Origin: Lachnospiraceae bacterium
GTDB taxonomy: Bacteria > Bacillota > Clostridia > Lachnospirales > Lachnospiraceae
Reading direction: 5' to 3'
Assembly (NCBI GenBank): GCA_910575255.1
Contig: CAJTEM010000032.1
Location: 1-58,544, forward strand
Length of the DNA stretch: 58,544 nucleotides
Below are positions 2,466 through 58,014 of this stretch, piece by piece; the first letter of the stretch is position 1; every line of letters begins with the position of its first letter. A model generated the notes under the pieces. It searched no databases and was not told where the DNA came from. It saw only the letters and a list, made by a program, of their open reading frames with translations. The position numbers were made by a program, and so were the translations under genes.

Positions 2466-3404
2466 TTATCTTTCCTTTTGTTCTAAATCTTTTTGTATCT
2501 GAATTAGAAACAATTCATATAGCTGCCGATGTTTCTTTATTATGATATCCAATATTACGCCACATGTCCAAAGGAGAATCCCAAAGATTGCCACAAACCC
2601 GGAAACAATGACTGTAGGGAACCTCGGCACTTTTCCGGTTTGAATATATTCTAATAAAACTGGGAGAAAAAACATCAATGCCACCCCCCCCAGTAAGGCA
2701 GCGATTATACTGAAAAATGCAAACGGTTTATATTCCCGAAATAATGCTGCAATAGTCTTTAAAACCCTGATTCCATCAGAAACTGTGTCAAGTTTGGATT
2801 CACTTCCAATAGGACGATCTCTGTATCCTACCGGAATTTCTTCTATAAGAAAATTTTTATCCAGTGCGTGAATTGTCATTTCTGTTTCGATTTCAAAACC
2901 TTTTGAAAGAACGGGGAATGATTTTGCAAACAAGGGGCTAAATGCCCGGTATCCCGTCATCATATCACTGACATTACTGTGGAACAGGAAATTAATTAAA
3001 AACCTGACCAACCGATTTCCTGTATTATGGAACCTTCTTTTATTTTCTATAAAATATGTAGAGGAGAGCCTGTCTCCAATTACCATATCCACACCTTTAT
3101 CCAAAACCAGTTCAACTAATTTCACAGCTTCTTCTGCCGGATAGGTGTCATCTCCGTCCACCATAAGATAACAATCCGCCTTAATATCCCGAAACATGCT
3201 GCGGATCACATTTCCCTTTCCCTGACGGTATTCATGGCGCACGATTGCACCCGCTTCTTTTGCAATTTCAGCAGTATTATCTGTTGAATTATTGTCATAG
3301 ACGTAAATATTCGCTTCAGGTAAAACGTCTTTAAAATCTTTAATTACCTTTCCTATTGTTTTGCTCTCATTATAGCAAGGCACTAATATTGCTATTTTAT
3401 CCAT
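2466..3404 (-). CDS. Polyprenyl-phosphate sugar synthase-like GT2 with C-terminal TM segments
   Basis: A 312-residue GT2 enzyme of the DPM1/GtrB type. It has an N-terminal Rossmann-like domain (VPCYNES at 8-14, DGDDTY at 83-88) and two C-terminal membrane helices at about 230-295. Such enzymes transfer a sugar from a nucleotide donor to undecaprenyl phosphate on the cytoplasmic face, for later use outside by GT-C enzymes. The nearby GtrA and GT-C genes fit that role. I chose the internal ATG at 3404 because it has AGAAG upstream and overlaps the previous gene by only 8 bases. An upstream ATG at 3425 is possible. A G8 run encodes Gly239-Gly240 in the first helix and is in frame here. Confidence 0.88.
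   Translation of the reverse strand: MDKIAILVPCYNESKTIGKVIKDFKDVLPEANIYVYDNNSTDNTAEIAKEAGAIVRHEYRQGKGNVIRSMFRDIKADCYLMVDGDDTYPAEEAVKLVELVLDKGVDMVIGDRLSSTYFIENKRRFHNTGNRLVRFLINFLFHSNVSDMMTGYRAFSPLFAKSFPVLSKGFEIETEMTIHALDKNFLIEEIPVGYRDRPIGSESKLDTVSDGIRVLKTIAALFREYKPFAFFSIIAALLGGVALMFFLPVLLEYIQTGKVPRFPTVIVSGFVAIFGILLWTCGVILDIIIKKHRQLYELFLIQIQKDLEQKER
2684..2691 (-). repeat. Poly-G run of 8 (coding strand), in frame
   Basis: Eight C on the plus strand read as G8 within CTG GGG GGG GTG of the GT2 gene. Gain or loss of one G would truncate the membrane anchor. Confidence 0.9.
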
Positions 3405-5019
3405 TTTCTTCTTTTGGCCTTTCATAGTTTTTATCAGACAATATCATAGTCAGTAAAATTGGAATACATACAATATACGGAAACGCATATCGAATTAAGA
3501 CGCATGGGCCAGCCAAAAGCGTCAATATGAAAAATCCAATTAATGTGAATGTTACAATGCCCCTTCGCCCCATATCTAAAACATAGGTAAAAAGAAGCAA
3601 AATCATCCAGAAATATGTCGCGGGAGAACACAATAATCTTAGTATAAATAATTCTTGATATTTATTTGTTGTGTATAGATATTCATAAAGCTTTTCTAAT
3701 GCTGAAAAACGGGAAACATGTATTACGCCAAATCCATCTTTTGTATCTGTCAGTAAATACCCTTGCCTTGATTCCGCTGTTGTCCCATAAATGGCCGCGT
3801 GTGTTTTATCTCCAATGTAAAAATATCCCAAATTATGCTGTAGAAAAGCCTGAAAATAATCCAAAGGATATTTTTGAAATAGTCTTATGTAACAGGAGAA
3901 GAGCTTTCTTAGATTCTGATTACCTGTAGCACTTCCCTTTACCGGATCGGACAAATGCGGATTATAATTCTCAACAGTCGGTATGATTTCTAATATCTCT
4001 GACAGTTCCTCATTTGACAGTTCTTCTTTTTTTGCATGATAAACGTAAGAGATCTGCTGATATGGCAAACTTAGCGCTTCATTTCCGGAACCTTTTCCTG
4101 CAGATAACGTAAAGGAGAGTCCTTCGGAAATGATAAGAGCCAAAATGATCCCCGTCAATGTACTCCATAAATATTTGAAATTTTTCCTTTTAATCACTAA
4201 TATCCCTGTCCCGATTCCAAAAGACATTACAACCGCGAATATTCCATTGTTTCGGAATAAAATTACCCCTATAACTGAAATGATGTATAAACCAATATTT
4301 CCGACAGTATTATAATGAGGCGGATACTTTTCCCAATAAAAAAGGCAAACGCAAAGTATTCCCATAAATCCCGTAAAAAAAACATCTTTAGTCATAGAAA
4401 TAGATAAAACGGAAAAATAGGGCAGCAGGGAGGATAAGGCAAGCAGAACTCTACGTATTTTTACATTTACCCCTATTGTGTAGAGAAATAAATGGATGTA
4501 AGAAACCATCATTGTAAAAAGAAACATCTGCATAGCCGATGCACAAGCAATCCCTACTGTGTAATTGTTGCATTTTTCACCAACAATATAATAGAAAAAT
4601 TGCAAATAAAGAGTATGTATCAAAGGATGGTGACGGTAATAGCCTCCTGTTGACTGGGAAATTTGCCATGCCACATCATAAGCAAACAAACCAGGATAAT
4701 ATGCCAAAAGCACAGGTATATAAGCAAGGTTCATACAGACAACACAAATCAAAAAATATATATATTTTTGTTTTAGTGTTATCTCTGATTCAAATGATGA
4801 GGATAATGGATAACTTATCAAATATTTACGTAATCTAAGATATATTTCTCCAACTATCGGGCTAAAAAAAATTGTGTTCAAAATAACAAAGAGAACATTA
4901 TCAAAACTAGCAGTTAAATGGCTTTCCAGATATTTCCCTAAAAGATTAATAAAACAGAATGGGATTCCAAAGGCTAAAGCAATCGTGGTATCTCTTTTAT
5001 TTTTAAAAAGTTCAAACAT
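3397..5019 (-). CDS. DUF6020-like polytopic membrane protein, probable GT-C glycosyltransferase
   Basis: A 540-residue protein with about 11 hydrophobic segments. The first large extracellular loop holds YYPGLFAYDVAWQ (Asp114) followed by HHPLIHT (130-136). This layout resembles DUF6020 proteins and, more broadly, GT-C enzymes that use polyprenyl-phosphate sugars with an acidic residue in the first loop. The substrate is unknown. The start at 5019 lies 4 bases after the preceding stop. A longer reading from 5091 would overlap the upstream gene by 68 bases and is less likely. The protein is probably a side-chain transferase acting with the GT2 enzyme immediately downstream. Confidence 0.8.
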   Translation of the reverse strand: MFELFKNKRDTTIALAFGIPFCFINLLGKYLESHLTASFDNVLFVILNTIFFSPIVGEIYLRLRKYLISYPLSSSFESEITLKQKYIYFLICVVCMNLAYIPVLLAYYPGLFAYDVAWQISQSTGGYYRHHPLIHTLYLQFFYYIVGEKCNNYTVGIACASAMQMFLFTMMVSYIHLFLYTIGVNVKIRRVLLALSSLLPYFSVLSISMTKDVFFTGFMGILCVCLFYWEKYPPHYNTVGNIGLYIISVIGVILFRNNGIFAVVMSFGIGTGILVIKRKNFKYLWSTLTGIILALIISEGLSFTLSAGKGSGNEALSLPYQQISYVYHAKKEELSNEELSEILEIIPTVENYNPHLSDPVKGSATGNQNLRKLFSCYIRLFQKYPLDYFQAFLQHNLGYFYIGDKTHAAIYGTTAESRQGYLLTDTKDGFGVIHVSRFSALEKLYEYLYTTNKYQELFILRLLCSPATYFWMILLLFTYVLDMGRRGIVTFTLIGFFILTLLAGPCVLIRYAFPYIVCIPILLTMILSDKNYERPKEENG

Positions 5020-5023
5020 TATT

Positions 5024-7207: not shown

Positions 7208-7621
7208 TTATGATTTTTTAAAAATGATGAGTTTGCTAGCAATAAAATTTAATGCAATAATCAGAATGTTAGTAAAGGCTTTCATAAAAATATCATTGAT
7301 CCCCAGAATATCAACAAATATCCACATACAAAGCCAATCGATAACCCCTGTTGCAAGCCGACACAAAAAGAAAGACATAATCTCCTGGCATCTGCTTGTA
7401 ATATCCTTTGCTTTGCTGTGAAATACCCATTTGCGGTTGGTCAAATAAGCAAACAGAACAGCTGTTATCCATGCAATTATTGTACTTTGTAACGTGCTCA
7501 TTCCCATACGGTGAGCCATGATCCAAAAAACAATAATATTAACAAGTGTGGTACATACTCCGAAAATTATATAAAATACAATATCTTTATAGATTCCCCC
7601 CAATTTATTTACTTTTGCCAT
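7208..7621 (-). CDS. GtrA-family small membrane protein
   Basis: A 137-residue protein with four predicted helices and the typical GtrA pattern, including YLTNRKWVF between helices two and three. GtrA proteins are proposed flippases or partners for polyprenyl-phosphate sugars made by GtrB-type GT2 enzymes. It lies between a GT2 gene and GT-C genes, matching a three-component glycan modification system. The start at 7621 has AAGGA about 11 bases upstream and overlaps the previous gene by 13 bases. A G6 run lies near the start (7596-7601). Confidence 0.88.
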   Translation of the reverse strand: MAKVNKLGGIYKDIVFYIIFGVCTTLVNIIVFWIMAHRMGMSTLQSTIIAWITAVLFAYLTNRKWVFHSKAKDITSRCQEIMSFFLCRLATGVIDWLCMWIFVDILGINDIFMKAFTNILIIALNFIASKLIIFKKS

Positions 7622-8328
7622 CTGTGCATATCCTTCCTGAATTTCCAAAAGTCGCCAAGAGCATTCCATCCTATCTTTATAATTCGGGGAATGTTAATAG
7701 AATTCACACCGCCTTGTCTTGGTTTAAATGAAATTTCTTCGAACTTGATTTTATCTTTGTAATATGTAAAGTAAGTTGTCATCATAATATTGGGAAGATT
7801 ATAATCCTGCGGCATTCGGGACAGGTACTTATTTACACAAATGGATTTCATTAAACGAAAAGGTGCATTTGCATCCGGAACTTTTACACCAAAAAAAAGT
7901 TGTATTAACACACATACAATTTTTTCTACAAAGGCCCTTGATTTACCATCCCCTCTTACAGTCCGGTTTCCTAATATAGCATCATATTCTTTTCTCTGAT
8001 TCCAAAATCCATTAAACTCCTGGGGATCCGTTTGTCCGTCGGAATCTGTCTGAAAAATATAATCGGCGCCTGATTCTATAGCATACTTATATAATGCAAT
8101 AACTTTCGGTCCGTGTTGACGCCCAGTGTCTGATAGAATGACCAATTTGGGGTGGCTTTTTTGTAAATCAAGTAGTATATCATGAGTTTTATCCTGGCTT
8201 CCGCTGTCTGCAACAACAAGGCGAGAATTCTCTGACTTTCCGCTCAATAATGGATACCATGCCCGAATCACCCCCCCTATATTAGATTCTTCATTATATG
8301 CAGGCATTACAATATATACCGACTCCAT
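7609..8328 (-). CDS. GT2 family glycosyltransferase
   Basis: A 239-residue soluble GT2 enzyme with VMPAYNEE near the N-terminus and an Asp-Ser-Asp metal and nucleotide-sugar site at 95-97. There is no membrane helix. Family members build glycans in the cytoplasm or make polyprenyl-phosphate sugars, and adjacency to gtrA allows the latter. The start has AGGAGC about 8 bases upstream. A G7 run encodes Gly18-Gly19 and the following valine, so a one-base slip would abort translation very early. It is in frame as sequenced. Confidence 0.88.
   Translation of the reverse strand: MESVYIVMPAYNEESNIGGVIRAWYPLLSGKSENSRLVVADSGSQDKTHDILLDLQKSHPKLVILSDTGRQHGPKVIALYKYAIESGADYIFQTDSDGQTDPQEFNGFWNQRKEYDAILGNRTVRGDGKSRAFVEKIVCVLIQLFFGVKVPDANAPFRLMKSICVNKYLSRMPQDYNLPNIMMTTYFTYYKDKIKFEEISFKPRQGGVNSINIPRIIKIGWNALGDFWKFRKDMHRWQK
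8271..8277 (-). repeat. Poly-G run of 7 (coding strand), in frame
   Basis: Seven C on the plus strand read as ATA GGG GGG GTG in the GT2 gene at about codon 18. That is an early position suited to on/off switching. Confidence 0.85.
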
Positions 8329-16888: not shown

Positions 16889-18304
16889 ATGATAGAAAAG
16901 CATGTCAAACAGATTTCCCTATTCTTTTTAATATATGTTGCTATTGCAGTTGCCTTCTATTTCATCGGCGGTGATCAGCTGAAGTACAAATATGTGGTCA
17001 GCCCTCTCGGGAATCCGGATGGCATCTTAGAAGAGTTTACAAAAGAAATCGAGATCCGCCAGCCCTTTGTTCCCACAGAGGAAACCTTAGAAACCATTGA
17101 CATCCTCTTCTGCACCTATGCCAGGGAAAATGCAGGCACGGTTACCGCCAGGATCTTCGATGATTCCGGCGCAGAGCTTGCCGCCCATTCGTTGGATATT
17201 TCCGCATTAGAGGATAATGACCCTTATAAATGGGTGATCTCTCCGGGTATACCCGGGGTGAAGGGGAAAAACCTGACCCTGGCATTGACCTCCGACGGCC
17301 TGCCGGGTTCCTCCCCCGGCATCTATTATTCCGCCCCCGAGAACGACCGGCAGGTCTTTTATGTCAATAGCACTCCGAGAAACGGCCGGATCTGCTTTGA
17401 CTTTGTCGGCAAACAGGTCTTTCTCTTCGGCACTTATTACTGGCAGTTCGCAGCAGGCTTCGGTGCTCTGATCCTCGCTTACTGTCTCTGGGCCTTTTAC
17501 CGGAAAAAGAAGGGAAAGCCTACAGTTTTATCCCATGTATCCGCAGTCTGGGGCAGATATCAGTTTCTGATCCGGCAGCTGGTTTCCCGGGATTTTAAGA
17601 CCAAATATAAGCGTTCAATCCTGGGCTATCTGTGGAGCTTTCTGAACCCCCTGCTGACCATGACCGTGCAGTATATTGTCTTTTCCACGATTTTTAAATC
17701 CACGATTCAGAACTTTCCAGTGTATTTATTGTCCGGGATTATCCTGTTTAACTTTTTTACCGAATCCGTGGGACAGGGGCTGACTGCGATTGTGGGAAAC
17801 GCTTCCCTGATTACCAAGGTCTATGTCCCCAAGTACATTTACCCGATTACCAAGGTGATCTCCAGCTCCATCAACCTGGTGATCTCTGTCATCCCGCTGC
17901 TTTTGGTGACCGTGGTCACGGGAACCCGCATTACCACAGCGATCCTTTGTCTTCCTTATGTGTTCCTCTGCCTGCTGTTGTTTTGCATCGGGATGTCTCT
18001 TTTTTTGTCAACGACCATGGTGTTTTTTCGGGATACGGAATATCTCTGGGGAATCGCCAGCCTGATCTGGACTTATGCGACTCCCTTGTTTTATCCGGAG
18101 AATATCATACCGGCGCAGTTCCGGTTCGTGCAGACCTTGAACCCGCTTTACCATTATATCCGTTTTACCCGGACCATTTTAATCCAAGGTGTGGTCCCGG
18201 AACCCAGGGCGTTTGCGGTCTGCCTTTTCTCGGCACTTTTGACCTGTGCGGCGGGGGCTGTGGTCTTTAAAAAGTTTCAGGATCGGTTTGTACTTTATAT
18301 ATAG
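16889..18304 (+). CDS. ABC transporter permease of glycan exporter B with extracytoplasmic domain
   Basis: A 471-residue paralogue of the permease at 12947-14368 with the same order: helix, extracytoplasmic domain (about 40-175), helix, ABC-2 core (DFKTKYKRSILGYLWSFLNP). The core is nearly identical to that of exporter A, whereas the outer domain differs much more, so the two exporters may handle different chains. It opens the plus-strand operon with AGAGG 6 bases before the ATG. From here to 23535 the base composition is clearly GC-richer than in the flanks. Confidence 0.92.
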   Translation: MIEKHVKQISLFFLIYVAIAVAFYFIGGDQLKYKYVVSPLGNPDGILEEFTKEIEIRQPFVPTEETLETIDILFCTYARENAGTVTARIFDDSGAELAAHSLDISALEDNDPYKWVISPGIPGVKGKNLTLALTSDGLPGSSPGIYYSAPENDRQVFYVNSTPRNGRICFDFVGKQVFLFGTYYWQFAAGFGALILAYCLWAFYRKKKGKPTVLSHVSAVWGRYQFLIRQLVSRDFKTKYKRSILGYLWSFLNPLLTMTVQYIVFSTIFKSTIQNFPVYLLSGIILFNFFTESVGQGLTAIVGNASLITKVYVPKYIYPITKVISSSINLVISVIPLLLVTVVTGTRITTAILCLPYVFLCLLLFCIGMSLFLSTTMVFFRDTEYLWGIASLIWTYATPLFYPENIIPAQFRFVQTLNPLYHYIRFTRTILIQGVVPEPRAFAVCLFSALLTCAAGAVVFKKFQDRFVLYI

Positions 18305-18341
18305 AAGTGCGCCGGCACCTTTCATGCGAGGGGAATGTCCT

Positions 18342-19079
18342 ATGGAAAATGTAATGATCGATATCGACCGCGTTACCATGCGGTTCCGCATGGCGAATGA
18401 CAAAATTGAGAGCCTGAAGGAGACCTTTATCGCCATGCTCTCCGGGCGGCTGAAATATGAGGAATTCACGGTATTTGAGGATATCAGCTTTGATGTGAAA
18501 AAAGGGGAGGTTGTGGGGATTGTCGGGAAAAACGGCGCCGGCAAAAGCACGCTTTTGAAGATCATTTCCGGGGTGTTAAAGCCCACGAAGGGGGTCGTCC
18601 GCACTTACGGAAACATCGTTCCCATGCTGGAGCTCGGCTCCGGCTTTGACCCCGAACTGACAGGACATGAGAATATCTTTTTGAATGGCGCGATTTTAGG
18701 CTACAGCAAGGAATTCCTCGCGGAAAAGTACGAAGAGATCCTGGAATTTTCCGAGTTGAACGAGTTTATCCATATGCCAATCCGGAACTATTCTTCCGGT
18801 ATGATGATGCGCCTGGCCTTTTCCGTTGCCACGGTGGTATGTCCGGAAATCCTGATTGTGGACGAAATCCTGGCGGTTGGGGATGAAGGCTTCCAGACCA
18901 AAAGCAAGACACGGATGCTGGATCTGATGGGCGGGGGCACTACGGTGCTCTTTGTATCACACAGCCTGGAACAGATCGAAGAGATGTGTGACAGGGTGGT
19001 GTGGATTGATGAACATAAGATCCGGATGATCGGGACTTCACAGGAGGTCTGTGAGGAATACCGGAAATTCTGGAGCTGA
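18342..19079 (+). CDS. ABC transporter ATP-binding subunit of glycan exporter B
   Basis: A 245-residue ATPase with Walker A GKNGAGKST, signature NYSSGM, Walker B ILIVDEI and SHS. It lacks a C-terminal carbohydrate-binding domain. It is closely similar to the ATPase of exporter A along its whole length. I chose the ATG at 18342 (MENVMIDIDRV) because GAGGGG lies upstream. A longer frame from 18246 would overlap the permease and adds an implausible N-terminus. It partners the permease immediately upstream. Confidence 0.92.
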   Translation: MENVMIDIDRVTMRFRMANDKIESLKETFIAMLSGRLKYEEFTVFEDISFDVKKGEVVGIVGKNGAGKSTLLKIISGVLKPTKGVVRTYGNIVPMLELGSGFDPELTGHENIFLNGAILGYSKEFLAEKYEEILEFSELNEFIHMPIRNYSSGMMMRLAFSVATVVCPEILIVDEILAVGDEGFQTKSKTRMLDLMGGGTTVLFVSHSLEQIEEMCDRVVWIDEHKIRMIGTSQEVCEEYRKFWS

Positions 19080-21428: not shown

Positions 21429-21472
21429 ACTGTTCAAATAGAGGCTTCATGAGCAAAAGGAAAAGTGAAGAA

Positions 21473-31794: not shown

Positions 31795-33347
31795 ATGAAA
31801 TTCAATGTGATTTGTGACACACTTTTAATCGCCTTATTTGGATCGGCAATCTGTCTCCCGCTTGTTAAGGCAGATTTTCGCGGGGGGGGTGTTCGCCTGC
31901 AGAAAACCGGTATCTTTCAGAATTTCCGGAAATATTTGATGACAGCCAGGAATTCAGAGGCGATGTTCTAAAAGATGAGTTTGAAGAATGGATTAATGAT
32001 AATGCATTTGGAAGGGAATTTTTCTATACGGTAAATACTAAATTAAATTTAAAGCTGTTTAACCTTCATAACACTGATGAAATCCTTTACGGCAAGGATC
32101 GATGGATTTATCTGATGGTTGACCACAATATAGAACGCATACAAAATGCAGACAGCTTGCAGGGAGAAAAAAGAATTCTGTTAGAAAATAACATCAACAA
32201 GATCTCAAAAATAATACAGGAACGTGTTGGCTGTTACTTCCAGGTAAATGTCTTTCCTTGTAAATCTGATATTTATCCGGAATACCTGCCCTCTGTTTTA
32301 AAAAAGGTATCTCAGGAAAGCTCTTTGGATATGTATACAGATCTTTCCCGTAAAACAGCAGCTGATATAAATGTTCTTTATGATACTATGATCGAGCACA
32401 AACAGGATGGCCCACTGATCTATTATAAAGCAACTGACACAAATCATTGGAATCATCTTGGTGCATACTATGGCTATTTAGAAATAATGAATCAGATCAA
32501 AGAAAAAATTCCATCCATAAAAATTCTTTCATTTGATGACTTTATTGTTTCGGAAAAACAAGTGGATACTACTATAGCCGGAGAATACTTCACTTCTGAA
32601 ACAGACTTTAACTTTGAGCTTAAAGACAAAAGAACAGCACAGGAAGATAAGAATCATTTTAATGAAATAGGCTTTTTTTCTGCAGATACCTGGAACAGCT
32701 ATAACTATTATAAAAATGAAAACCAAAGCCTGCCAAAAGCAATTATTATCGGTGATTCCTACACCTGGATGTTTATGCTTCCCAATCTGGCAGAAAGCTT
32801 TTCCGAGTTATATTTTATTCATGCCGGAGGAGATAAAAATCATTTGAATAATATTCTGAATTTCATTTCTCCGGATATTATTCTTGTCAATGGTTTGACT
32901 GAAACAGTTACCGATTTTTTTATGAATTTTAACACTGATAAAATAGATTTAAAGCTACCGTCAAGAACACTGGATTTCAAAGAGCAGTCCTATGCATTTC
33001 TCGATTACATTAATGATGAAGCGATACAAAATAATAATCCTGACTTATTTGTGAATCCGGATGCCGCCTGTATCACTTTGCATGGCTGGGGAATCGATGT
33101 CCTGCAAAACCAGTTGGCTTCTTCTGTTATTGTAGAGGTAGGTGATCATATATACTATGGCAATTACGGAAATGACAGACAGATTGTTGCTGATTATTTT
33201 TCTAATCAGCAATTACTCAAATCGGGATTTGATGTGGCAATTGATACGAAACAGGCGCTAAAAGCCGGTGGTTTTAAGCTTCATATTATATCAAATGACG
33301 GAACCTACGAATATCCTCCGATTTCGTTTAATGTTTATGCAAAATAA
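31795..33347 (+). CDS. AlgX/AlgJ-like SGNH O-acetylation protein, frame-broken at a G8 run (phase OFF)
   Basis: AGAAGGAG stands 5 bases before the ATG at 31795. The first frame gives a short membrane anchor and ends in a TAA at 31969-31971. The rest of the protein continues in another frame. One extra G in the run at 31882-31889 joins them into 517 residues. The joined sequence (GGGCSPAENRYL) aligns with GGGISNSENRRL of the next gene. The SGNH-type sites are IGDSYTW and DTNHWNHLGAY. Relatives act with MBOAT proteins in acylating exported polysaccharide, and an MBOAT gene lies two genes downstream. About 130 C-terminal residues are extra compared with the paralogue. Confidence 0.85.
31882..31889 (+). 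repeat. Poly-G run of 8, gene out of frame (G9 restores)
   Basis: The run follows CGC at codon 29 of the AlgX-like gene. G8 leads to early termination. G9 gives the frame supported by the paralogue. Confidence 0.9.
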
Positions 33348-33382: not shown

Positions 33383-34597
33383 ATGAAAGGAATTAAATCA
33401 GTTATGGACAAAACATGCCCCATTAATACACTATTTGATAAATTGCTTATAGTTGGTTTTTCTGCTATTATATCAATTCCCTTTATATTCGCTGATAAAA
33501 TGGGGGGGGGTATTTCCAATTCGGAAAATCGCCGTCTTGCCATGATGCCCTTTGTTAACGAAAACCATGAGCTTATTCCTGACTTGGAATTTTCAGAATT
33601 ACAGGAAAGAACAGAGCAATGGATTGACGATAATGCCTATGGAAGAGATTATTTTTATGATTTAATGCTGAAGGCAAACTATTATCTTTTTGACGTTGTT
33701 GAAAAAAAGGATCTTTTGCTTGGGGATGATAACTGGACATTTTATTATAATAGTGACATTATTAAGGATTTTCAGCACAATAATATTCCATCGCAGGAAA
33801 CCTTGAATGGATGGGTCAATAGTTTTAAACAAATATCGAATTATTATGAGGAAAAAGATATTAAATTTATGGGTATTTTTCTCCCTGACAAAAAAACGGT
33901 ATATAAAGAGTACTATCCAAAGGGAATCCAGGAGATACAACATCAAAGCCGAAGCGATTTACTGCGAGAGAAATTTCAAGAGGCTAATGTAAACTTTTAC
34001 TTTGCAGAAGATGATCTTATTCATGCAAAGGGAAAACGCCTTTTGTATTCAAAAACTTTTGATTCTGCGCACTGGAATTCTTATGGGGCTTTTGTTGGCT
34101 ATCAAAATTTTATGAGAGAGGTAAAAAAATACTTTCCAAACATAAAGGTTGTTGACGAAAGTGATTTCATCATTAATGAATATCCAATTGATGAAAAATA
34201 TCTGGGAATCCTCCAGTCTGATGAAGTTTTGTATGAATTTGTGCCTAATGCAGCATCAAAAAATATCACTGAGGATATCGAGTTTTTTAATGATTTTCCC
34301 AACCTTTATTATGAAGGGCGTCCGGAAGTGATAAAAAAGAGATTTATTAACCCGGATAAGCAACTGCCAAAAGCTGTTTTTTGTGGCGATAGTATGGCAT
34401 ATGATTATCTGTTTCCTTTTTTAAGAGAGAGTTTTAGTGAACTGACATTTGTTCATACAAATGAATTTGATAAAGCAAAGGATCTTATTGAAAAAGCAGA
34501 TCCAGATATCATTCTATATGAATGTGTTGAGAGGATGTTTGATGCAAGCATTATTCGCGTTGAAGATTTCGCTGAAAATTTAGCGAGTGGAATGTAA
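33383..34597 (+). CDS. AlgX/AlgJ-like SGNH O-acetylation protein, phase ON
   Basis: A 404-residue paralogue of the preceding gene with an N-terminal membrane anchor, DSAHWNSYGAF and CGDSMAYDY as likely catalytic segments. It lacks the last 130 residues of the first copy. A G9 run encodes the Gly-Gly-Gly just after the anchor and keeps the frame open. Together with the MBOAT protein it probably transfers acetyl or another acyl group to glycan outside the membrane. The start may be 33383 or the ATG at 33404, since neither has an ideal ribosome site. Confidence 0.85.
   Translation: MKGIKSVMDKTCPINTLFDKLLIVGFSAIISIPFIFADKMGGGISNSENRRLAMMPFVNENHELIPDLEFSELQERTEQWIDDNAYGRDYFYDLMLKANYYLFDVVEKKDLLLGDDNWTFYYNSDIIKDFQHNNIPSQETLNGWVNSFKQISNYYEEKDIKFMGIFLPDKKTVYKEYYPKGIQEIQHQSRSDLLREKFQEANVNFYFAEDDLIHAKGKRLLYSKTFDSAHWNSYGAFVGYQNFMREVKKYFPNIKVVDESDFIINEYPIDEKYLGILQSDEVLYEFVPNAASKNITEDIEFFNDFPNLYYEGRPEVIKKRFINPDKQLPKAVFCGDSMAYDYLFPFLRESFSELTFVHTNEFDKAKDLIEKADPDIILYECVERMFDASIIRVEDFAENLASGM
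33502..33510 (+). repeat. Poly-G run of 9, in frame
   Basis: It reads ATG GGG GGG GGT and lies at the same place, right after the membrane anchor, as the G8 run in the upstream paralogue. Confidence 0.9.
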
Positions 34598-38173: not shown

Positions 38174-39157
38174 ATGAAAACACCAACATTGTATATTATA
38201 ATTCCTTGCTATAATGAAGAACAGGTATTGCCAATTACAAGTGGAATTTTTCTGAAAAAGCTTTTGCAATTGATAAAAGATCAATTAATTACCCCAGAAA
38301 GCAAAATTGTTTTTATCAATGATGGGAGTAAAGATTCCACATGGGAAATAATTAAGGAACTTTGTAAAAAAGAATACTATTTGGGAATCTGTTTAAGCAG
38401 AAATCGCGGACATCAAAATGCTTTATTAGCCGGCCTATTAGAAACCAAAGATTTATGTGATATTACAATTTCTATTGACTGTGATGGTCAAGACGACATC
38501 AATGCAATGGACGACATGATATGTGCCTATTATAAAGGTGCTGATATTGTGTATGGGGTAAGAAATAACAGAGATAGTGATACCTGTTTTAAAAAGTTTA
38601 CCGCAGAAATGTTTTACAAAATAATGACTAAGTTAGGGGTCGAATCCATATACAATCATGCGGATTATCGTTTAGTCAGTTCGAAGATTCTGGAGGAATT
38701 GGCACGATATAAAGAAGTAAATCTTTTTTTGCGTGGTATGTTTCCTTTAATAGGATTTAACAGCACTTGCGTCTACTATAAAAGAGAAACAAGAATTGCC
38801 GGAGAAAGCCATTATCCTTTAAGTAAGATGATATCGTTAGCTGTAAACGGCATTACCAGTTTGTCTATTCAGCCAATCCGGTATATTACCTATATGGGAA
38901 TTCTGGTTTCCTTGCTAAGTGGTTTAGGAATCATCTGGGCTGTCTTATGTGTGACATTGCAAATAGCTATATCAGGTTGGACTTCTATGATATGCATTAT
39001 TTGCTTTTTGGGGGGGGCACAAATGATATCTCTGGGAATTATAGGAGAATATATTGGCAAAATTTATTTAGAGACAAAAGAACGGCCAAGATACTCTATC
39101 AAAGAATATACATATAAAACTGAAAATAACAGCACGAAGATAGATTTTATAAAATGA
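38174..39157 (+). CDS. GtrB/DPM1-like polyprenyl-phosphate sugar synthase (GT2, two C-terminal TMs)
   Basis: A 327-residue GT2 enzyme with IIIPCYNEEQ, the DxD region DCDGQDD and two C-terminal helices separated by a short loop, typical of bactoprenol glucosyltransferases. It probably charges undecaprenyl phosphate for the DUF6311-like gene upstream. ATG 38174 is preceded by GGGGAA, while an upstream TTG frame overlaps the previous gene. A G8 run lies in the second helix (FLGGAQM) and is in frame. Confidence 0.9.
   Translation: MKTPTLYIIIPCYNEEQVLPITSGIFLKKLLQLIKDQLITPESKIVFINDGSKDSTWEIIKELCKKEYYLGICLSRNRGHQNALLAGLLETKDLCDITISIDCDGQDDINAMDDMICAYYKGADIVYGVRNNRDSDTCFKKFTAEMFYKIMTKLGVESIYNHADYRLVSSKILEELARYKEVNLFLRGMFPLIGFNSTCVYYKRETRIAGESHYPLSKMISLAVNGITSLSIQPIRYITYMGILVSLLSGLGIIWAVLCVTLQIAISGWTSMICIICFLGGAQMISLGIIGEYIGKIYLETKERPRYSIKEYTYKTENNSTKIDFIK
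39010..39017 (+). repeat. Poly-G run of 8, in frame
   Basis: It reads TTG GGG GGG GCA in the last membrane helix of the GtrB-like gene. Confidence 0.9.
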
Positions 39158-39249: not shown

Positions 39250-40368
39250 ATGGTCTACGATAAAATCATTATAGGCGCCGGCATCTACGGTTTATACTCC
39301 GCATTGAAATCCGGAAAATGGGGGGGGCGCATTCTGGTACTTGAATATGACGACCAACCATTCAAACGGGCTACCTACATCAATCAGGCTCGTGTTCATA
39401 ATGGCTATCACTATCCAAGGTCTTATTCTACTGCGATTAAATCTGCGAGCTATTTTGAAAGATTTAACCAGGATTTCGGATTTTGTGTACATTCTAAATT
39501 TGATCAGATCTATGCAACATCCAGGGATTTCTCCTGGACCAATGCAGATCAATTCCGAAGCTTTTGTAAAGCGGCTCAGATTCAGTGTGATGATGTGGCA
39601 ACAAGTATTTATTTTAAAGAGGGCATGTGTGACGGAGCCTTTTTAACAGAAGAATATACTTATGACGCACAGATCCTAAAAGAACACTTCCTAAAAGAAA
39701 TCAGCTTATTGCCCAATATAACTTTACAATTTGGGGCCAAAATTAAAAAATTAAAAAAACACACCAGCCATTATTCCCTGTGTCTGGAAGATGGCTCTGA
39801 ATATAGCAGTGATTTCGTTTTGAATGCCACCTATGCCTCGGTAAATCAAATATTGAAATTCTTAGGATTTGAACCGTTTAAGATTAAATATGAACTGTGT
39901 GAAATTATTCTATGTGATGTGAATGACAAATTGGAAAATGTTGGAATAACTGTCATGGACGGCCCGTTTTTTTCGATCATGCCTTTCGGGAAAACGGGTC
40001 TGCATTCCCTGACATCAGTAACCTTTACTCCACATGTAACCAGTTATGACAAAATTCCCACATTTTCATGCCAGAGAAAAAGCAGGGGATTCTGTTCCCC
40101 GTATCAATTAGGAAACTGCAATGATTGTCCTGCCCGTCCGGCAAGCGCATGGGATTACATGTCAAATCTGGCAAAAAAATATTTAAAAGATCAATGGAAA
40201 TTTGAATATAAATATTCCTTGTTTTCGATGAAGCCCATTTTAAAGATATCGGAAATTGATGATTCCAGACCAACTGTTATCAAATTCTTTTCCAGAGAAC
40301 CAACGTTTATCAGTGTTTTATCAGGAAAAATTAATACTATATATGATTTAGATGAGGTACTTATATGA
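39250..40368 (+). CDS. FAD-dependent oxidoreductase (DAO-like) with cysteine cluster
   Basis: A 372-residue protein beginning with the dinucleotide-binding motif IIIGAGIYGLYSALK. It has the general layout of D-amino-acid-oxidase-type FAD enzymes. Near residues 276-295 it carries C-x7-C-x7-C-x2-C, which could hold zinc or an iron-sulfur centre and is not usual for the fold. The substrate is unknown, and oxidation of a sugar or lipid-linked sugar is possible from context. ATG 39250 fits the domain start but lacks a ribosome site, whereas the ATG at 39220 has GGGAGG only 1 base away. A G8 run encodes Gly25-Gly26. Confidence 0.78.
   Translation: MVYDKIIIGAGIYGLYSALKSGKWGGRILVLEYDDQPFKRATYINQARVHNGYHYPRSYSTAIKSASYFERFNQDFGFCVHSKFDQIYATSRDFSWTNADQFRSFCKAAQIQCDDVATSIYFKEGMCDGAFLTEEYTYDAQILKEHFLKEISLLPNITLQFGAKIKKLKKHTSHYSLCLEDGSEYSSDFVLNATYASVNQILKFLGFEPFKIKYELCEIILCDVNDKLENVGITVMDGPFFSIMPFGKTGLHSLTSVTFTPHVTSYDKIPTFSCQRKSRGFCSPYQLGNCNDCPARPASAWDYMSNLAKKYLKDQWKFEYKYSLFSMKPILKISEIDDSRPTVIKFFSREPTFISVLSGKINTIYDLDEVLI
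39320..39327 (+). repeat. Poly-G run of 8, in frame
   Basis: It reads TGG GGG GGG CGC at about codon 24 of the FAD oxidoreductase, early enough for full on/off control. Confidence 0.9.
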
Positions 40369-45759: not shown

Positions 45760-47335
45760 TTAAGTATCATTATATTTTTTATAAATTGTAGGTGTTACAT
45801 ATTCTATCTCCATATTGCGGAAATGATCTTCGAGTATATCTTTAACATGTTTTTCATGTAACGGATCATTATAGGCATTATCGAGCGCCTCATCAAAATG
45901 GCTTTTCCGATCCTTAAACCCATCAAATCCGGCAATATATATTTTACCGCATTCCGTTGACTGAAGGAGATTGAGTAAGCATAAGACACTGTCAGAAGTT
46001 CTCTTTCCCTCAATATTACTTGCCTTTAAATAATTAACAACATACCCCGCAGAAATCTCCTGATGCAACAAATTCGAAGTTATAATTAATTTTTCTTTCT
46101 TTATATTTTTTCTTTCATAACTATATCTTTTGGTATTAGTAAAAAAGAAATAATCGCTGGAGACAAAATCACAGCTAAAATTCACGGAAATCACGAAGCA
46201 GTTACATTCTCTGATAACATTGAGTATTTTATTCTTCCAATGCAGGATACTTTCTCCCGGTGCCAGTACAAGGATTGCTTTCTCTTTAAATATTTTTCTC
46301 AAAGCTTTTAATGTATTTCCGTCATCGATATTAATATCCTGATAATTATTATATAATGATTGAATATACTCCTGATTAAAGATAACCTTTTCTTCCGGAA
46401 TTATGGATTCCAGTATTGCACGGATATCTTTGGTTTTTAAAGTCCCCTTTTTTATTAAAAATTCAGGATAGGTCCTGTGCAGATTATACATTGCCGAGAG
46501 TGCATAAGGGACGGCATACCCCCATGGACACTCCTGTTTTATCTTGGCTATAAAATCATCGATGGCATCATAAATAAAATTAATATTATAAATCCCTCTT
46601 TTTTCCCTGATCAGGTAATCCATAACTAATTCGATACAAAGATTTCCCGGAATTCTCCCGATTCCATTTAAAGATGCGTCAATGAAAATATCCTTTTTGT
46701 TTTCAAAGTACGAGATGAATTCTTGTGCCAATGAATAAGCAAGGCCCAGATTTTCATGCAAATGGGCCGATATTTTGATTTCAACACGTAAATTATTTTG
46801 TAAAAGAGAACTGATGCGTTTAATATCATTGATCGTCATGGAGCCAAAGGTATCTACGATTGTAAAAACATCCGGACAGGTTTCATTAACTTGGTCGATC
46901 AAATCCAACAATTCTCTATCGTTATAGCCCATAATATTAATTGGGTTACAATGGCAGACGTATCCGGACTTTTTGACCAATTCACATAATTGCAACCCCT
47001 CATTTACATCATATTTGTGAAAGGATACACGGATATGTCTGATAATGTTATCACAAGGTTCCAGCCTGCCCCAATCCCATTTGTCTTCCTGAACCATCAG
47101 GGAATATTCCTGCCCGTCCGTTTTTTCAGGGATAATTCTTTTTGCCTCCGCAACGGTATTATACAAACTTCGGTTATTGTCATATGCCGTATTTTTCAAA
47201 TATCCTAACTCAATTACATCTACCCCCCCCCCACGAAAGATTTTCGATAATTCCATGAAGGACGCGTTTCCCGAAATTCCAATCATTCACGTTTCCTCCA
47301 TCCCGCAATGAACTGTCGATCAATTTTATGCTCAT
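45760..47335 (-). CDS. DRE-TIM aldolase-like protein fused to GT42/DUF115-like domain, frame-broken at a G10 run (phase OFF)
   Basis: GAGGAG lies 8 bases before the ATG at 47335. The first frame reads LIDSSLRDGGNVNDWNFG, the metal-binding entrance motif of HMGL/4-hydroxy-2-oxoacid aldolases, then stops just past a G10 run (after WGGGRCN). The barrel continues in another frame (VDVIELGYL, HLHENLGL, GIGRIPGN). G9 would join them into 524 residues. The last 180 or so residues (VLAPGESI, IYIAGFDGF) resemble MptE/GT42-type transferases. A simple reading from an ATG at 47286 would lose the metal site and is rejected. It probably makes a 2-oxo-3-deoxy sugar acid for the CMP-sugar synthetase upstream, which is inference. 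Confidence 0.82.
47223..47232 (-). repeat. Poly-G run of 10, gene out of frame (G9 restores)
   Basis: Ten C on the plus strand. In the frame from ATG 47335, G10 reads TGG GGG GGG GGT AGA and soon reaches TGA. G9 opens the whole barrel. Confidence 0.92.
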
Positions 47336-48901: not shown

Positions 48902-49939
48902 CTAAATAATCTTTTTCTCGCCAATAATGTTCTCCAAAAATTCTCGTGGAAATATCTCTAATTCGCCACCCCTTGTTGCATTTATAACCTTTACTGAATG
49001 AATGTCACAATGATACGATACGGTCTTCCACATATCATCCGGATCATAAATACCCGCACTTTTCATATTTCCGTAATCCATCCAGGTGCTGATCGATGCC
49101 ATGATTTGTTTTTCTTCCTCTCCCGATGAATAAAAATGTGCAGGATCTCCGGAGAATAAATCCAGCACCTCCCTACCGTCAGGCAATATCTTCTTTTTAA
49201 AATTATTATCCACACCTAACAGATAAATTTCGCTTACTCCCATATAAACGGCAAATTGAATTGCCTGGTATAGTACGCTGCCGCCCTCATAGACCATTTT
49301 ATCCGGGCAATTGCTGAATTCAGGTATCACATTGTATCTTGGAATATGGTTATACCATATCGCTTTCTGAAACCATTTATCATCGATATGGTCTAATAAT
49401 TTGGCATCCAGGAGCAAACACGTCTGTTCTGTCAATTGTCCCATCCTCTTATTCTGTTCTGAAAAATATAAAGAGTCTGATACAAAATAATACGTGGGAC
49501 GCCATTGCGTATATGGAAAGATTTCGGTGATCTTATTAACGGCAAAGGTCAATTCATACTGCAGATGATCCAGATCCTTTGCCCGAAGAGACGGCCCGTT
49601 CCCAATTACAAAGCACCGTTTTCCTTTATGAATATTTTTCAGCTCCGATAACCGTTCTCCGTTTCCAGGACACTTTTTTTCTATATTGGCCAAAATCAAA
49701 TCGCTTATCTGATTATCATACGAATGCTGCATATGCCATAATTTATGTCTCTGTTCTTCGGCATAACCCGAAAAATCTTTTGCCGAAAGATTATCGCTGC
49801 AAGTAAGCCCACTCAAAAATTCCTGTAACTGCCGGTTTTCTTCTTCAAGTTTCCTGATTTTTTCTTCCTGTACATCAGCCCTGGCAATTAATTCTTTTAT
49901 CTGTGCTGTCAGGTTGTCTGTTTTATTGTTTCCCCACAT
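48902..49939 (-). CDS. DUF115/MptE-like protein, probable GT42-type sugar transferase
   Basis: A 345-residue protein with a short coiled coil (20-42) and a conserved domain from 104. It has FVIGNGPSLRAKDLD (111-125), GGSVLYQAIQFAVYMG (219-234), YLLGVD (239-244) and INATRGGELEIFPR near the end. The IGNGPSL, SVLYQAI and LLGVD segments parallel CstII-type sialyltransferases (IAGNGPSL, YLCGID). It could therefore transfer a CMP-activated acid, which is inference. MptE-type pyrophosphokinase is the alternative label. ATG 49939 has GGAGAG 7 bases upstream. Its paralogue at 55304-56389 has a shifted tail. Confidence 0.83.
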   Translation of the reverse strand: MWGNNKTDNLTAQIKELIARADVQEEKIRKLEEENRQLQEFLSGLTCSDNLSAKDFSGYAEEQRHKLWHMQHSYDNQISDLILANIEKKCPGNGERLSELKNIHKGKRCFVIGNGPSLRAKDLDHLQYELTFAVNKITEIFPYTQWRPTYYFVSDSLYFSEQNKRMGQLTEQTCLLLDAKLLDHIDDKWFQKAIWYNHIPRYNVIPEFSNCPDKMVYEGGSVLYQAIQFAVYMGVSEIYLLGVDNNFKKKILPDGREVLDLFSGDPAHFYSSGEEEKQIMASISTWMDYGNMKSAGIYDPDDMWKTVSYHCDIHSVKVINATRGGELEIFPREFLENIIGEKKII

Positions 49940-49981
49940 ATGAATTCTCTCCATTATCGTTTAAGCAGACAAAAGTATAAG

Positions 49982-53476: not shown

Positions 53477-54190
53477 TTATACCCCCCCAAGGAGCTGATT
53501 CAATCTTTTTGCTTCTTCAGGAATATTCAATTTTTCCGGCATATTCATCATTACAAGTGCCTGGGCATAATCATAGATATCATCGATATCAATAGCTTCT
53601 TTCTTTGTCACTTCCATCAGATACGGATTTTCTCCAATCCGATCTCCCCACTCTTTATATTTTTCTCTTGGAGTAATCTGTATTCCATTGGTAAACAGAT
53701 AAAGCCTGGGCAAATTCTGTGAATTGGGATGATGCCGTCCTCTGGAAAAGTTCATCGGTCCCTTCTCATTCATCAGGTAATGTTGGAATTTGCATACTGT
53801 CACAAGAGAATCATATCCTTCTTTCATTTTTTGAAGATATTCCCGGATTGCTCTTTCATATAATCTGTCATCAACCAGAGGAGATGTTACGCAAGCCCAG
53901 ATAATGTGATCTCCCTCCAGTACATCCCCCAGATAAGATACAAACTCACTGATGGGAAGTGTCTCATTTGCATAGGAAAGGGGGCGAAGCATTGGAATCG
54001 CTCCTTCGCTTTTGGCAATAGCAAGCATTTCCTGAGATTCGGAAGAAACGACAATCTGGTCAATCTGTCTGACCTTCTTTAATTGTCTGATTTTGTGCGA
54101 CAGGAGATTGGCATCCCCAAAGGGCAACTGATTTTTCCCCGGAAGCCGGGAGCTGTCTCCTTTTACAGGAATAAGTGCGGTAAATGTCAT
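53477..54190 (-). CDS. CMP-sugar (NeuA-type) cytidylyltransferase
   Basis: A 237-residue enzyme similar to the one at 47348-48022. It has LIPVKGDSSRLPGKNQ, CVTSPLVDD, GPMNFSRGRHHPNSQNLP and KEAIDIDDIYDYAQA. It probably activates a sugar acid with CTP. The start at 54190 has AAGGAAAGGA upstream. A G7 run sits at the very end (CTT GGG GGG GTA TAA), so slippage would change only the C-terminal tail: G8 adds a few residues and G6 adds about 27 codons reaching the next gene. Confidence 0.86.
   Translation of the reverse strand: MTFTALIPVKGDSSRLPGKNQLPFGDANLLSHKIRQLKKVRQIDQIVVSSESQEMLAIAKSEGAIPMLRPLSYANETLPISEFVSYLGDVLEGDHIIWACVTSPLVDDRLYERAIREYLQKMKEGYDSLVTVCKFQHYLMNEKGPMNFSRGRHHPNSQNLPRLYLFTNGIQITPREKYKEWGDRIGENPYLMEVTKKEAIDIDDIYDYAQALVMMNMPEKLNIPEEAKRLNQLLGGV
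53482..53488 (-). repeat. Poly-G run of 7 at the stop codon
   Basis: Seven C on the plus strand, immediately before the TAA of the cytidylyltransferase. Length change alters the tail and the distance to the next start. Confidence 0.85.
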
Positions 54191-54228
54191 GATTTTTCCT
54201 TTCCTTAATAATTTTGTTTGGATTCTTA

Positions 54229-55332
54229 TCATATAATTTTATTTAATACAGGAATCCGTTTTAATAAAATGGTTGTAATATAGCCCAGAACAAAAACAAT
54301 ACCACAATATAAAAAAGCCGTAAGCATATAATTCAGTCCCAATTGATGATGAAAAATATTCCAAAGCTGAGTTATCGCTGTAATTTTTTCTTTATAGAAA
54401 ACATGCAACAGGTATATGCCAAATGTACATGCCCCTATTGAACAGATCATTCTTTTTACATAATCAGGGAAGTTATAATTGCTGCAAATATATTCTGATG
54501 TCACAAATATTGTTGCACAATTTATCATGGCAAAGACACTATGGAATGATTGTGAATTACTTTCATCAAGGATTCCTGTTATATTTGACTTAACATAGGT
54601 AAGATAACCAGCTATTATTATAGTTCCTATATTTGTGAGCCACAATAACACGATTCTTTTTCGAGTCCAAAATCTTTTGAGCCTTGCTTTTAGAAAATAA
54701 CCCAAGCAGGGATAGATAAAAATGTCAGTACATAACCATTGGAGCCGAAAATTCCAATTTAAATTGTATTTGCCTTGCCATAAAATAAACTCTGTTACCG
54801 GTAAAAGTGAGGAGAAGCAAATTACAAGGATCAATATATATACAAAATCTCTATTGGTTAATGCTTTTACTATTCTTTGCAACAGAGGCAGCGTCATTAA
54901 CATGGAAATGTATGCATATAAGTACCAGAAAGAATAATTCCAGCTAAAGCTATACAACTGTTTGACGAATTCCCTGAAATCCAACTGAAACGAACCTGAA
55001 TATACCTCAACAAAAAAGTAAAAGAGGGACCAGGTTACCAGGATAATCACCATTTTCAGGATTCTGTATCTCCATAGTCTGTTTAAAGGCTCTGGTTCCC
55101 TGTCTAACATTAACGCACCAGATATTGTAAAAAACAATGGTACCGAAAATTTGCAGAAAACAGACAGAAACAAATAAATCCAAAATTGTAAACTGTGCTT
55201 ATCGTATAATGAGAAAAGAAAGTATCCGTTTGTCTCTGTATGATTGAAAATCACGAAAAAGCAGGCAATTATCCGCATCAGCTCGATATCTATTTGCTTC
55301 CATTTAGTTTCTTTTGTTTTTTGGACATTCAT
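54229..55332 (-). CDS. Acyltransferase 3 family membrane protein (OafA-like)
   Basis: A 367-residue protein with about ten helices. The N-terminal pattern IDIELMRIIACFFVIFNHT carries the conserved Arg and His of membrane acyltransferase 3 enzymes, which O-acetylate sugars of surface glycans. ATG 55332 has AAGGAT about 8 bases upstream. In the frame as sequenced the preceding DUF115 gene runs 29 bases into it. In the restored (G8) frame of that gene a 26-base gap would separate them. Confidence 0.87.
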   Translation of the reverse strand: MNVQKTKETKWKQIDIELMRIIACFFVIFNHTETNGYFLFSLYDKHSLQFWIYLFLSVFCKFSVPLFFTISGALMLDREPEPLNRLWRYRILKMVIILVTWSLFYFFVEVYSGSFQLDFREFVKQLYSFSWNYSFWYLYAYISMLMTLPLLQRIVKALTNRDFVYILILVICFSSLLPVTEFILWQGKYNLNWNFRLQWLCTDIFIYPCLGYFLKARLKRFWTRKRIVLLWLTNIGTIIIAGYLTYVKSNITGILDESNSQSFHSVFAMINCATIFVTSEYICSNYNFPDYVKRMICSIGACTFGIYLLHVFYKEKITAITQLWNIFHHQLGLNYMLTAFLYCGIVFVLGYITTILLKRIPVLNKII

Positions 55333-56389
55333 ATCTGTTATCCTTTTTCTTGTTCCCTTCAATTTGGGATGTTAGTAGCTTTTTCGAAGGATACCCTGGG
55401 GAATATTTCCAGCTGCCCCCCCTCGTTGCATTTAGTACTGATACCTTATGTATGCTGCAATGATATGCTACTGTATTCCACATATCATTTAAATCATAAG
55501 TTCCGTTTTTTATCTTGTTCTCTCCAAAATCCATCCAACTGCTGCAATATAAGTTTAACCTTTGACATTCCTGCTTGTTAGACTTGTAAAAATAATTATC
55601 TTCAAAAAAATCAATTACCTTACGTCCATCCTCTAATATCTTCGTTTTATAATTGTTATCCACCCCTAAAAGAAAAATTTCTGTTATTCCCATAAAAACA
55701 GCAAATTGCACCGCAATGTATAGCACGCTTCCTCCTTCATAGACCATTCTATCTGGGTTACAGCTAAACTCTGGGATAACACTGTATCGGGTGTTATGAT
55801 AATACCAAAAGATTTTTTCCCAATATTTTTCATCTATAGCTTTCATAAATTCTGAATCCATCAGAATGCAGGACTTCTCAATTATTTCAGACGTCCATTC
55901 ATTGATATGATTTAAAAATATTGGATCAGACACCATGTAATAGGATGGGCGCCATTTTGTGTAAGGGAATATTTCCGTAATTTTGTTTACCGCAAAGGTT
56001 AATTCATTTTGCAGCTTGTCCAGATCTTCTGCTCGTAAAGACGGGCCGTTGCCTATGATAAAACATCGTTTCCCCTTATGAATATCTTTTAAGCCTGCCA
56101 ACCGTTGGATATTTCCAGAACATCTTTTTTCCACATTTTCCAGTGTCAGAGAACTTAGCTGATTGTCATATGAATATTGCATATGCCATAATCTATGCTT
56201 CTGTTCTTCTGTATACTTGAGAAAGTCTTCTTTTAATAGTGTTTTTCTCTGGGTCGAACCATTCCAGAGACTCCTTAATTGCTGATTTTCTTCCTCAAGT
56301 TTTTTGATTTTTTCCTGTTGTTCATTAATTACAACAGTTACTTTATTTATCTGTACTGTCAGATCATCTGTTTTATTATTTCTCCACAT
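55304..56389 (-). CDS. DUF115/MptE-like (GT42-type) protein with frame-shifted C-terminus
   Basis: A 361-residue paralogue of the 48902-49939 protein: coiled coil, FIIGNGPSLRAEDLD, GGSVLYIAVQFAVFMG, FLLGVD and LNATRGG. Right after this a G7 run changes frame, giving an unrelated basic tail. With G8 the sequence reads GGQLEIFPRVSFEKATNIPN and stops at 55359-55361, matching GGELEIFPREFLENI of the paralogue, whose coding sequence has GGGGTGGC instead of a pure run. So the present form is a tail-altered phase. The start at 56389 has AGGAG about 9 bases upstream. Confidence 0.83.
   Translation of the reverse strand: MWRNNKTDDLTVQINKVTVVINEQQEKIKKLEEENQQLRSLWNGSTQRKTLLKEDFLKYTEEQKHRLWHMQYSYDNQLSSLTLENVEKRCSGNIQRLAGLKDIHKGKRCFIIGNGPSLRAEDLDKLQNELTFAVNKITEIFPYTKWRPSYYMVSDPIFLNHINEWTSEIIEKSCILMDSEFMKAIDEKYWEKIFWYYHNTRYSVIPEFSCNPDRMVYEGGSVLYIAVQFAVFMGITEIFLLGVDNNYKTKILEDGRKVIDFFEDNYFYKSNKQECQRLNLYCSSWMDFGENKIKNGTYDLNDMWNTVAYHCSIHKVSVLNATRGGSWKYSPGYPSKKLLTSQIEGNKKKDNRYECPKNKRN
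55416..55422 (-). repeat. Poly-G run of 7, tail out of frame (G8 restores)
   Basis: It reads AGG GGG GGC in the DUF115 gene. The paralogue at 48902 shows the ancestral frame without a pure run. Confidence 0.88.
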
Positions 56390-56402
56390 AGCTGTTTTTC
56401 TC

Positions 56403-58014
56403 CTAAGATTTTTTAATACGCTTTTGGTATCGTCTGTCAAGTTCTGTTATTAAATAAATAGTACAGGTAAAAATTCCGATATAATACACTGGATAATAAT
56501 ACATGAATGCTTCGCCAGGCATAGTCATCCAAATTAAAGGTATTTTTGATAAAACAGATAAAAGTACAACTATTCCATAATGATTTTTTTCTTTGCACAG
56601 TTTGAAAAGAGAGAATAATATTCCTGTGAAAGGTATTAATAAAGAAAAGCAAATGATTCTTATGAGCCTTAATATAGAAGAGTTTTCCCAATTAAAAGTC
56701 ATAAAAGTTAATGTTTTAGCAAAAATGTCATAATTGAGAGGCTGAAAACCAGAAATGTCCAGATTCAGCATCGTAGGTGGAGAACTTATTCCCTCATTCG
56801 ACCATAAACTTTCAGAAATTTGTGCTTGTGTATACACAGTATTATTCTGCGTTTTTATAAATGTTTGCCATCGGTTTTTAAAAAAAACATCCAGGTTGTT
56901 TGCCATTAAAGTTGTGTATGCATCCCAAAAGCCTGGGTGTATTTCTGGTTTACCATCAATGAAAAAATCACTGTAATACATCCACATTAATGCAGTTCCT
57001 GAGCTTTCACTGTTTAAAATAATATCAACAGACATGGTTTCGTTAATTTTTTGCAGAAGGTTATTTTCTTTCCACCCCCCCCCCGCATTTTCCGGCTTCA
57101 TTTCTTATCATATCTGTTATTGGGTCTATCACCGCTGTTATGGTATTGTGGTCATAGTTCTGATAAGTTAATCTTCTTTGGAGCATATTGACTCCAAAGA
57201 AACCGAAAGAAGTAAGAATAATGCTTACAGATAAAAAAACAGGTGTAAAAATATTTTTTTTATATAATATTAAATAAAAAGCTGCACCTATCAACATATA
57301 ATAGATACCCTCAGAACGTAGCGTTGACAGCAATACTAAAAGAAAACTGATTTTCACAAAATCAAATTGTCTGGTAGTTTCATTAAAAAGTCTGCGTAGT
57401 GACAAAAAAAGCAAAATCTCGATGCTGGCATATACAGAACACCTTAAAGGATATTCATTAAAGAGTAGTACCTGAAAAGAGCAACTTGGAAGCAAAATAA
57501 GAAAAATCAAATATTTGTGTTTGATTTTTTCATATATTACCGCAGCAACCAACATAATAACTGACACATTTAACAAGATGACAGACAGAATAATTCCTGT
57601 AGGACATGGTATTATCATAAGCATCCAAATATACCATATCGCTACAATCCAGTGCTGTACGCTGCCAATATTAAAGTCCCGAACCGATGGTAACAACCAT
57701 AATTCGTCTCCACCCCACATACCGGGATAAATAAGTACCAGCACGACTAAATTAGCAGAAATAATCATCATAAAAAGAAGTGACAAATGTTTTTTCTTAT
57801 ATTTGTTCCATGATTGACAGTTTATACAAAAATAGTTATAAGAAACATTAACAAACCAAATGACAAATAAAAGAAACGTAAATTTTATAAGCCAATATTT
57901 TAAGGAATGATAATCCGGATGCAGAACGACATTCTCACACCAGAAAGAATATCCTATTAAAATCATAACAAGAAGAAATCTATATAGCTTTTGCCGGGAT
58001 TGTTTTTGAAACAT
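56403..58014 (-). CDS. GT-C-like polytopic membrane protein, frame-broken at a G10 run (phase OFF)
   Basis: The ATG at 58014 shares its A with the upstream TAA and has AAAGGA about 9 bases before it. The first frame has several helices and a loop motif IYPGMWGGDELW (Asp103, Glu104), as in GT-C and DUF6020-like enzymes, and ends at 57061 with GGGVERK. The second frame (from the same run, GGGWKENNLL) continues with outer-loop sequence and four more helices to 56403. G9 would join them into 536 residues. It is probably an outer-face sugar transferase, currently off. Confidence 0.82.
57075..57084 (-). repeat. Poly-G run of 10, gene out of frame (G9 restores)
   Basis: Ten C on the plus strand, exactly at the junction of the two frames of the GT-C-like gene. 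Confidence 0.92.

Follow-up and report, generated by a model that had tools for sequence, protein, structure and literature searches.

Coding-strand poly-G tracts in a surface-glycan locus of a Lachnospiraceae bacterium: a probable case of multi-gene slipped-strand phase variation

Why should long runs of G gather in a single surface-glycan locus of a gut bacterium, each of them on the coding strand of a gene? The locus (positions 209 to 58340, genes on both strands, as recognized by Pfam scans) lies on contig CAJTEM010000032.1 of a Lachnospiraceae bacterium (NCBI GenBank assembly GCA_910575255.1). The entire contig, 58,544 nucleotides in length, was analyzed and is referred to below as the window. 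An earlier note on this DNA had listed ten poly-G runs of 7-10 bases and proposed that they constitute a multi-gene phase-variation system. All ten runs were recovered with exactly the coordinates and lengths listed, four of them being 8 G long, and a reading-frame check placed G on the coding strand of the host gene in 10 of 10 cases. The cut-off of 7 G for slippage is the value used for Campylobacter in PMC6321876.

The number of runs was compared with chance in two ways. Markov models of order 1-4 fitted to the window itself (200 simulations) gave means of 1.5-4.4 runs of at least 7 and maxima of 7-12, so that the order 1 and order 4 models can reach the 10 observed. For runs of at least 8 the means were 0.3-1.3 and the maxima 3-5, compared to 7 observed. 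The earlier estimate of less than one run of at least 7 was thus too low; runs of at least 8 are nevertheless rare by chance. Synonymous-codon shuffling, which leaves the proteins unchanged, was applied to 43 reading frames; 2000 trials yielded a mean of 1.6 coding-strand runs of at least 7 and a maximum of 8, with 11 counted in the real sequence (10 distinct runs, one of which sits in two overlapping frames).

The window was also set against the remainder of its genome (5.14 Mb in 106 contigs), of which it makes up 1.1%. It holds 7 of the 31 distinct G runs of at least 8 obtained by hand-collapsing 80 overlapping rows (0.35 expected; binomial P 5e-8), and 3 of the 52 runs of exactly 7 (0.59 expected; binomial P 0.02). 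The enrichment therefore lies mainly in the longer runs: the excess over chance is strong for runs of at least 8 and weak for those of exactly 7. An equal density of G runs elsewhere in the genome had been named in advance as an outcome that would speak against phase variation, and the rest of the genome has no such density of long runs. Base composition was also considered. The GC content of the window is 38%, compared to 50% for 18 other loci around G runs of the same genome, and the GC-rich block at 16889-23535, said in the earlier note to be free of long G runs, contains no G/C run of even 6 bases despite its 49% GC.

In the assembled sequence, three genes lose their frame at the run, one has an altered tail and six are open, in agreement with what had first been noticed. 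At these four displaced sites, homologous sequence was found on both sides of the run, in differing frames. The G8 at 31882..31889 (+ strand) lies near the 5' end of an AlgX-like gene, whose start piece (from 31795) and body (to 33347) occupy different frames; each piece aligns to its own part of an open paralogue, 33383-34597, which has its own G9 (33502..33510, + strand) directly past the same membrane segment. The G10 at 47223..47232 (- strand) lies near the 5' end of an HMGL-like aldolase gene, again with a start piece (from 47335) and a body (to 45760) in different frames. The N-terminus of the aldolase aligns with a homologue from genome G005 of the same genus, and the body with a paralogue in the window. 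The G10 at 57075..57084 (- strand) divides a membrane-protein gene in two, 57061-58047 and 56403-57101. These match the two parts of a gene on contig C40 of the same genome, which is itself split at a G8 (E 4e-24 and 5e-10). The runs of these two genes are not at one place, since they fall at codons 321 and 270, respectively. In the MptE-like gene 55304-56440, the G7 at 55416..55422 (- strand) is near the 3' end of an open frame, and the tail matching a 57%-identical paralogue (48902-49954) sits in another frame past the run. Both pieces of each out-of-frame gene are otherwise open.

The remaining runs are in open frames. Two of the G8 runs, 2684..2691 (- strand; gene 2466-3425) and 39010..39017 (+ strand; gene 38126-39157), are in GT2 glycosyltransferase genes; a common run position as one motif was considered for this pair and rejected, as their alignment does not cover the run. 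A further G8, at 39320..39327 (+ strand), lies near the 5' end of an FAD-dependent oxidoreductase gene (39220-40368). The G7 at 8271..8277 (- strand), at codon 19 of the GT2 glycosyltransferase gene 7609-8328, and the G7 at 53482..53488 (- strand), in the last codons of the cytidylyltransferase gene 53477-54232, are weak candidates without direct support; a one-base change in the latter would alter just the last codons or the tail, and alignments to two relatives stop short of it. Homologues picked among those available had no run at the place matching that of the window gene: eight AlgX-like homologues from other genera (8 of 30 loci) for 33502, three GT2 homologues for 39010 and two oxidoreductase homologues (58-60% identity) for 39320. 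A scan of named genomes with the aldolase as the query found no relative.

The same pattern was observed at a second locus. On contig C40, a 5.3 kb segment with glycosyltransferase and acyltransferase genes contains four runs of 8-12 G, and three of the four split genes, one of them the relative of the 57075 gene described above. On contig C22 of the same genome there is a G10 in an open frame, the surroundings of which look by eye like sugar biosynthesis. Runs of 9 or 10 G are present in 23 of 24 genomes of the genus (this one counted), and clusters of similar appearance in glycan genes are carried by stretches from six further species. These 15 stretches (L095-L109) were selected because they had runs of 9 or 10 G close together or on large contigs, which biases both the lengths of their runs and the classes of their genes. 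They contain 45 runs of at least 8, of which, with frames read with G in the coding strand, 19 are in an open frame, 10 split a frame, 12 lie near an end and 4 are in no frame. Thirty run-bearing frames picked from among these were scanned; 12 belong to glycosyltransferase or sugar-acyltransferase families and 8 to no family. Both open and split states are found among the paralogues of the window and across the window, C40 and the genus stretches, never in one and the same gene. In the family as a whole, at least one run of at least 9 G occurs in 184 of 299 genomes.

Run length differs between related copies at one site and between orthologues at another, both outside the window (comparisons across species used one genome per species). 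Tandem gene copies in G005 carry 7 and 10 G at one place, lengths that keep the same reading frame; the following 77 bases are identical, as are 155 of the 200 bases ahead of the run. The second site precedes an orthologous HlyD-like gene, and its G count is 10, 9, 10, 9, 9, 7, 5, 6 and 9 in nine species; it is present in 9 of 17 orthologues and absent from the other eight. For the HlyD-like gene on contig C35, the idea that the upstream tract is simply part of a promoter was dropped, because a second TTGAC-17-TAGGAT pair was seen by eye directly downstream.

Poly-G was also found outside genes. In 27 of the 299 family genomes there are 39 distinct places at which it occupies the spacer of a TTGAC...TANNAT pair, with spacers of 13 to 20 bases and the run adjoining the -10 box in 32 of the 39, while the reversed spacer pattern gave 0 in every row across the same genomes. 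The spacer loci were examined as stretches L220-L249. According to a crude test, which was seen by eye to have missed two signal peptides, the first downstream frame looks exported at 17 of 29 loci, compared to 7 of 28 background frames (Fisher P 0.016). Such places in the genome of the window include C35:6587-6613 and C8:136155-136185; the latter lies ahead of an exported protein that weakly matches choline-binding repeats, at a score under the Pfam cut-off. Coding constraint does not explain these runs, because they sit in promoter spacers. The arrangement fits a second mode of phase variation, acting at putative promoters. We regard as plausible, at slightly better than an even chance, a Lachnospiraceae poly-G phasome that would combine multi-gene glycan switches inside reading frames in the genus with family-wide sigma-A-like promoters having a 7-11 G spacer beside the -10 box, many of them before exported proteins.

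The frame breaks could be sequencing or assembly errors at G homopolymers, with the genes intact and the run lengths fixed. G runs are indeed described as difficult for sequencers in PMC9187656, and the lengths given here were read from the assembly. Homopolymers of A/T provided a control. The window has 52 A/T runs of at least 7, of which 50 are inside genes, and none of these 50 breaks the frame locally; seven were flagged by the script, all in two genes already split at a G run and open locally. Among runs of at least 8 in the window, C40 and the genus stretches, 14 of 56 G/C runs (7, 4 and 45, respectively) split a frame, compared to 1 of 50 A/T runs from the same DNA (Fisher P 0.0006), by a rule that overlooks runs close to the end of a gene, 31882 and 47223 among them. 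Errors would also leave unexplained the gathering of long G runs in one locus and on one strand, and a genome of the same family, G169, has 27 long G/C runs without a split. We consider such errors an unlikely cause.

Ordinary decay, in which single frameshifts fell by chance in homopolymers of genes being lost, would account for three genes being out of frame as assembled. It sits poorly with the otherwise open pieces of each broken gene, with the runs in intact genes (one at the same place as in a split paralogue) and with the recurrence of clusters in other species, and we give it very little credence. Out-of-frame genes without other lesions are also what recoding would look like, i.e. ribosomal or transcriptional slippage at poly-G giving full-length protein while the DNA length stays stable. 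Yet six of the ten runs are in open frames, where such slippage would just lose product, lengths differ between related sites, and the promoter-spacer runs offer nothing to recode; of the three alternatives this one seems the most far-fetched. Multi-gene slipped-strand phase variation of surface-glycan genes is in our judgment very probably the best reading of the window. The proposal of the earlier note is thus supported by the enrichment of long runs, the breaks at G and not at A/T, the frames confirmed by homologues and the similar clusters in relatives. The unequal lengths at related sites and the poly-G in promoter spacers also count in its favour.

Several observations weigh against slipped-strand switching in this locus. 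The genome of the window has full-length mutS and mutL, and both score above the cut-off in 23 of 24 genus genomes; loss of mismatch repair was therefore rejected as the driver. Campylobacter has neither gene, a trait which the genome studied here does not share. Six of the ten window genes are in open frames. In G169, none of the 27 G/C runs of at least 8 found in 74 kb (L215-L218) splits a gene. Long G runs can thus also arise otherwise, and an interpretation of G169 as this system in extreme form was rejected. Its runs are mostly of exactly 9 and mostly in open frames, several of them in apparently conserved housekeeping motifs; the 1.6 Mb genome has 126 runs of at least 9. The tie of the runs to glycan genes, which stands in the window and C40, is weaker across the genus. 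An unclustered sample (the 10 loci of 29 that had a long frame) contained 2 of 10 run-bearing frames of glycan type, along with two histidine kinases, and a glycan-only use of the runs throughout the genus was rejected on this basis. Finally, frequent change of tract length within the strain is an inference.

In the mechanism proposed, most runs of at least 8, and probably also the G7 at 55416, would be contingency tracts of a surface-polysaccharide locus. Slipped-strand mispairing during replication would add or remove one G, shift the frame and turn the gene off or on; as the tracts sit in reading frames, a one-base change would alter expression. An open frame presumably represents the ON state, and a change of glycan presumably follows switching, so that one clone could give rise to many surface-glycan variants.

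The gene content of the locus is in keeping with such a role. Pfam scans identified many glycosyltransferases, two ABC exporter pairs, two RgpF-like proteins, a PfkB-cytidylyltransferase fusion, an acylation set of two AlgX-like proteins and an MBOAT acyltransferase, NDP-sugar enzymes, three CTP_transf_3 proteins, two HMGL-like aldolases and two MptE-like proteins. By their Pfam families, the run-bearing genes fit a surface role, as is typical of contingency loci. Rfam and tRNA scans of the window gave no match. The block at 16889-23535, with 49% GC inside the 38% GC locus, has its own ABC exporter pair, a glycosyltransferase and two epimerases, and looks like DNA of other origin.

Other G runs were encountered along the way. 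At C36:30547 of the same genome, a G9 lies between open stretches of 94 and 264 codons in differing frames, a split gene in what appears by eye to be a non-glycan locus. Contig C40 ends in a G10 (positions 1-10) whose flank is identical to that at C6:44552-44561, which makes a repeat the probable reason for the break in the assembly at this point. At six places in the genome, mostly intergenic (L017, L020, L021, L024, L025 and L028), G runs of 8-18 are followed by an interspersed sequence of approximately GGTACGC...TGGAA. In G005 (L101, position 2768), a G10 is at the very start of an open frame for a type III restriction/helicase-like protein.

The earlier note was aware of no such cluster described for this group, which agrees with our literature search, in which no report of slippage-based switching in Lachnospiraceae was found among titles and abstract openings, subscription journals being largely outside its range. 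The available text of PMC6437147 concerns Campylobacter tracts and Lachnospiraceae abundance, and that of PMC13317340, on Clostridium flagellar glycans, names phase variation for C. jejuni alone. Slippage switching as a kind is already known; its occurrence in Lachnospiraceae would be new, as far as the literature found extends. If the system operates as proposed, a single clone of a gut bacterium displays many surface-glycan types, which would matter for phage resistance, for antibody coating and for the comparison of strains. In Lachnospiraceae assemblies, a broken glycan gene may then be switched OFF and not be a pseudogene, and slippage-based multi-locus switching would extend to a large gut family.

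Gut anaerobes are known to switch genes by another route: the review PMC11868660, in whose available text 'Lachnospir' and 'Firmicutes' occur nowhere, describes site-specific inversion of Clostridioides difficile promoters and Bacteroidales glycan loci. These are like the window in switching surface or signalling genes and differ in mechanism, which here would be slippage. The Campylobacter phasome, as outlined in PMC6321876, consists of G tracts of at least 7 in many genes, mostly inside reading frames and oriented so that G lies on the coding strand (5% are poly-C), with length peaks at repeat numbers of 9 and 10; according to PMC8437040, surface-glycan genes of Campylobacter are switched through such tracts. 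In Bifidobacterium breve, as summarized in PMC9187656, two pilus loci are switched by slippage at a G tract, which was demonstrated by deep sequencing. The window resembles the Campylobacter phasome in having G tracts of at least 7 inside the frames of many genes, with G on the coding strand, and B. breve in having intragenic G tracts in a gut commensal, with slippage that would join or separate two reading-frame pieces. It differs from the former in its lengths of 7-10, its Lachnospiraceae host and the presence of mutS and mutL, from the latter in involving many glycan genes and not two pilus loci, and from both in being known from sequence alone. Phase-variable promoters of Neisseria contain poly-G or poly-C between -35 and -10, which changes the spacer length. 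The putative promoters found here have a homopolymer spacer in common with these, and they form a family-wide Lachnospiraceae set defined by pattern.

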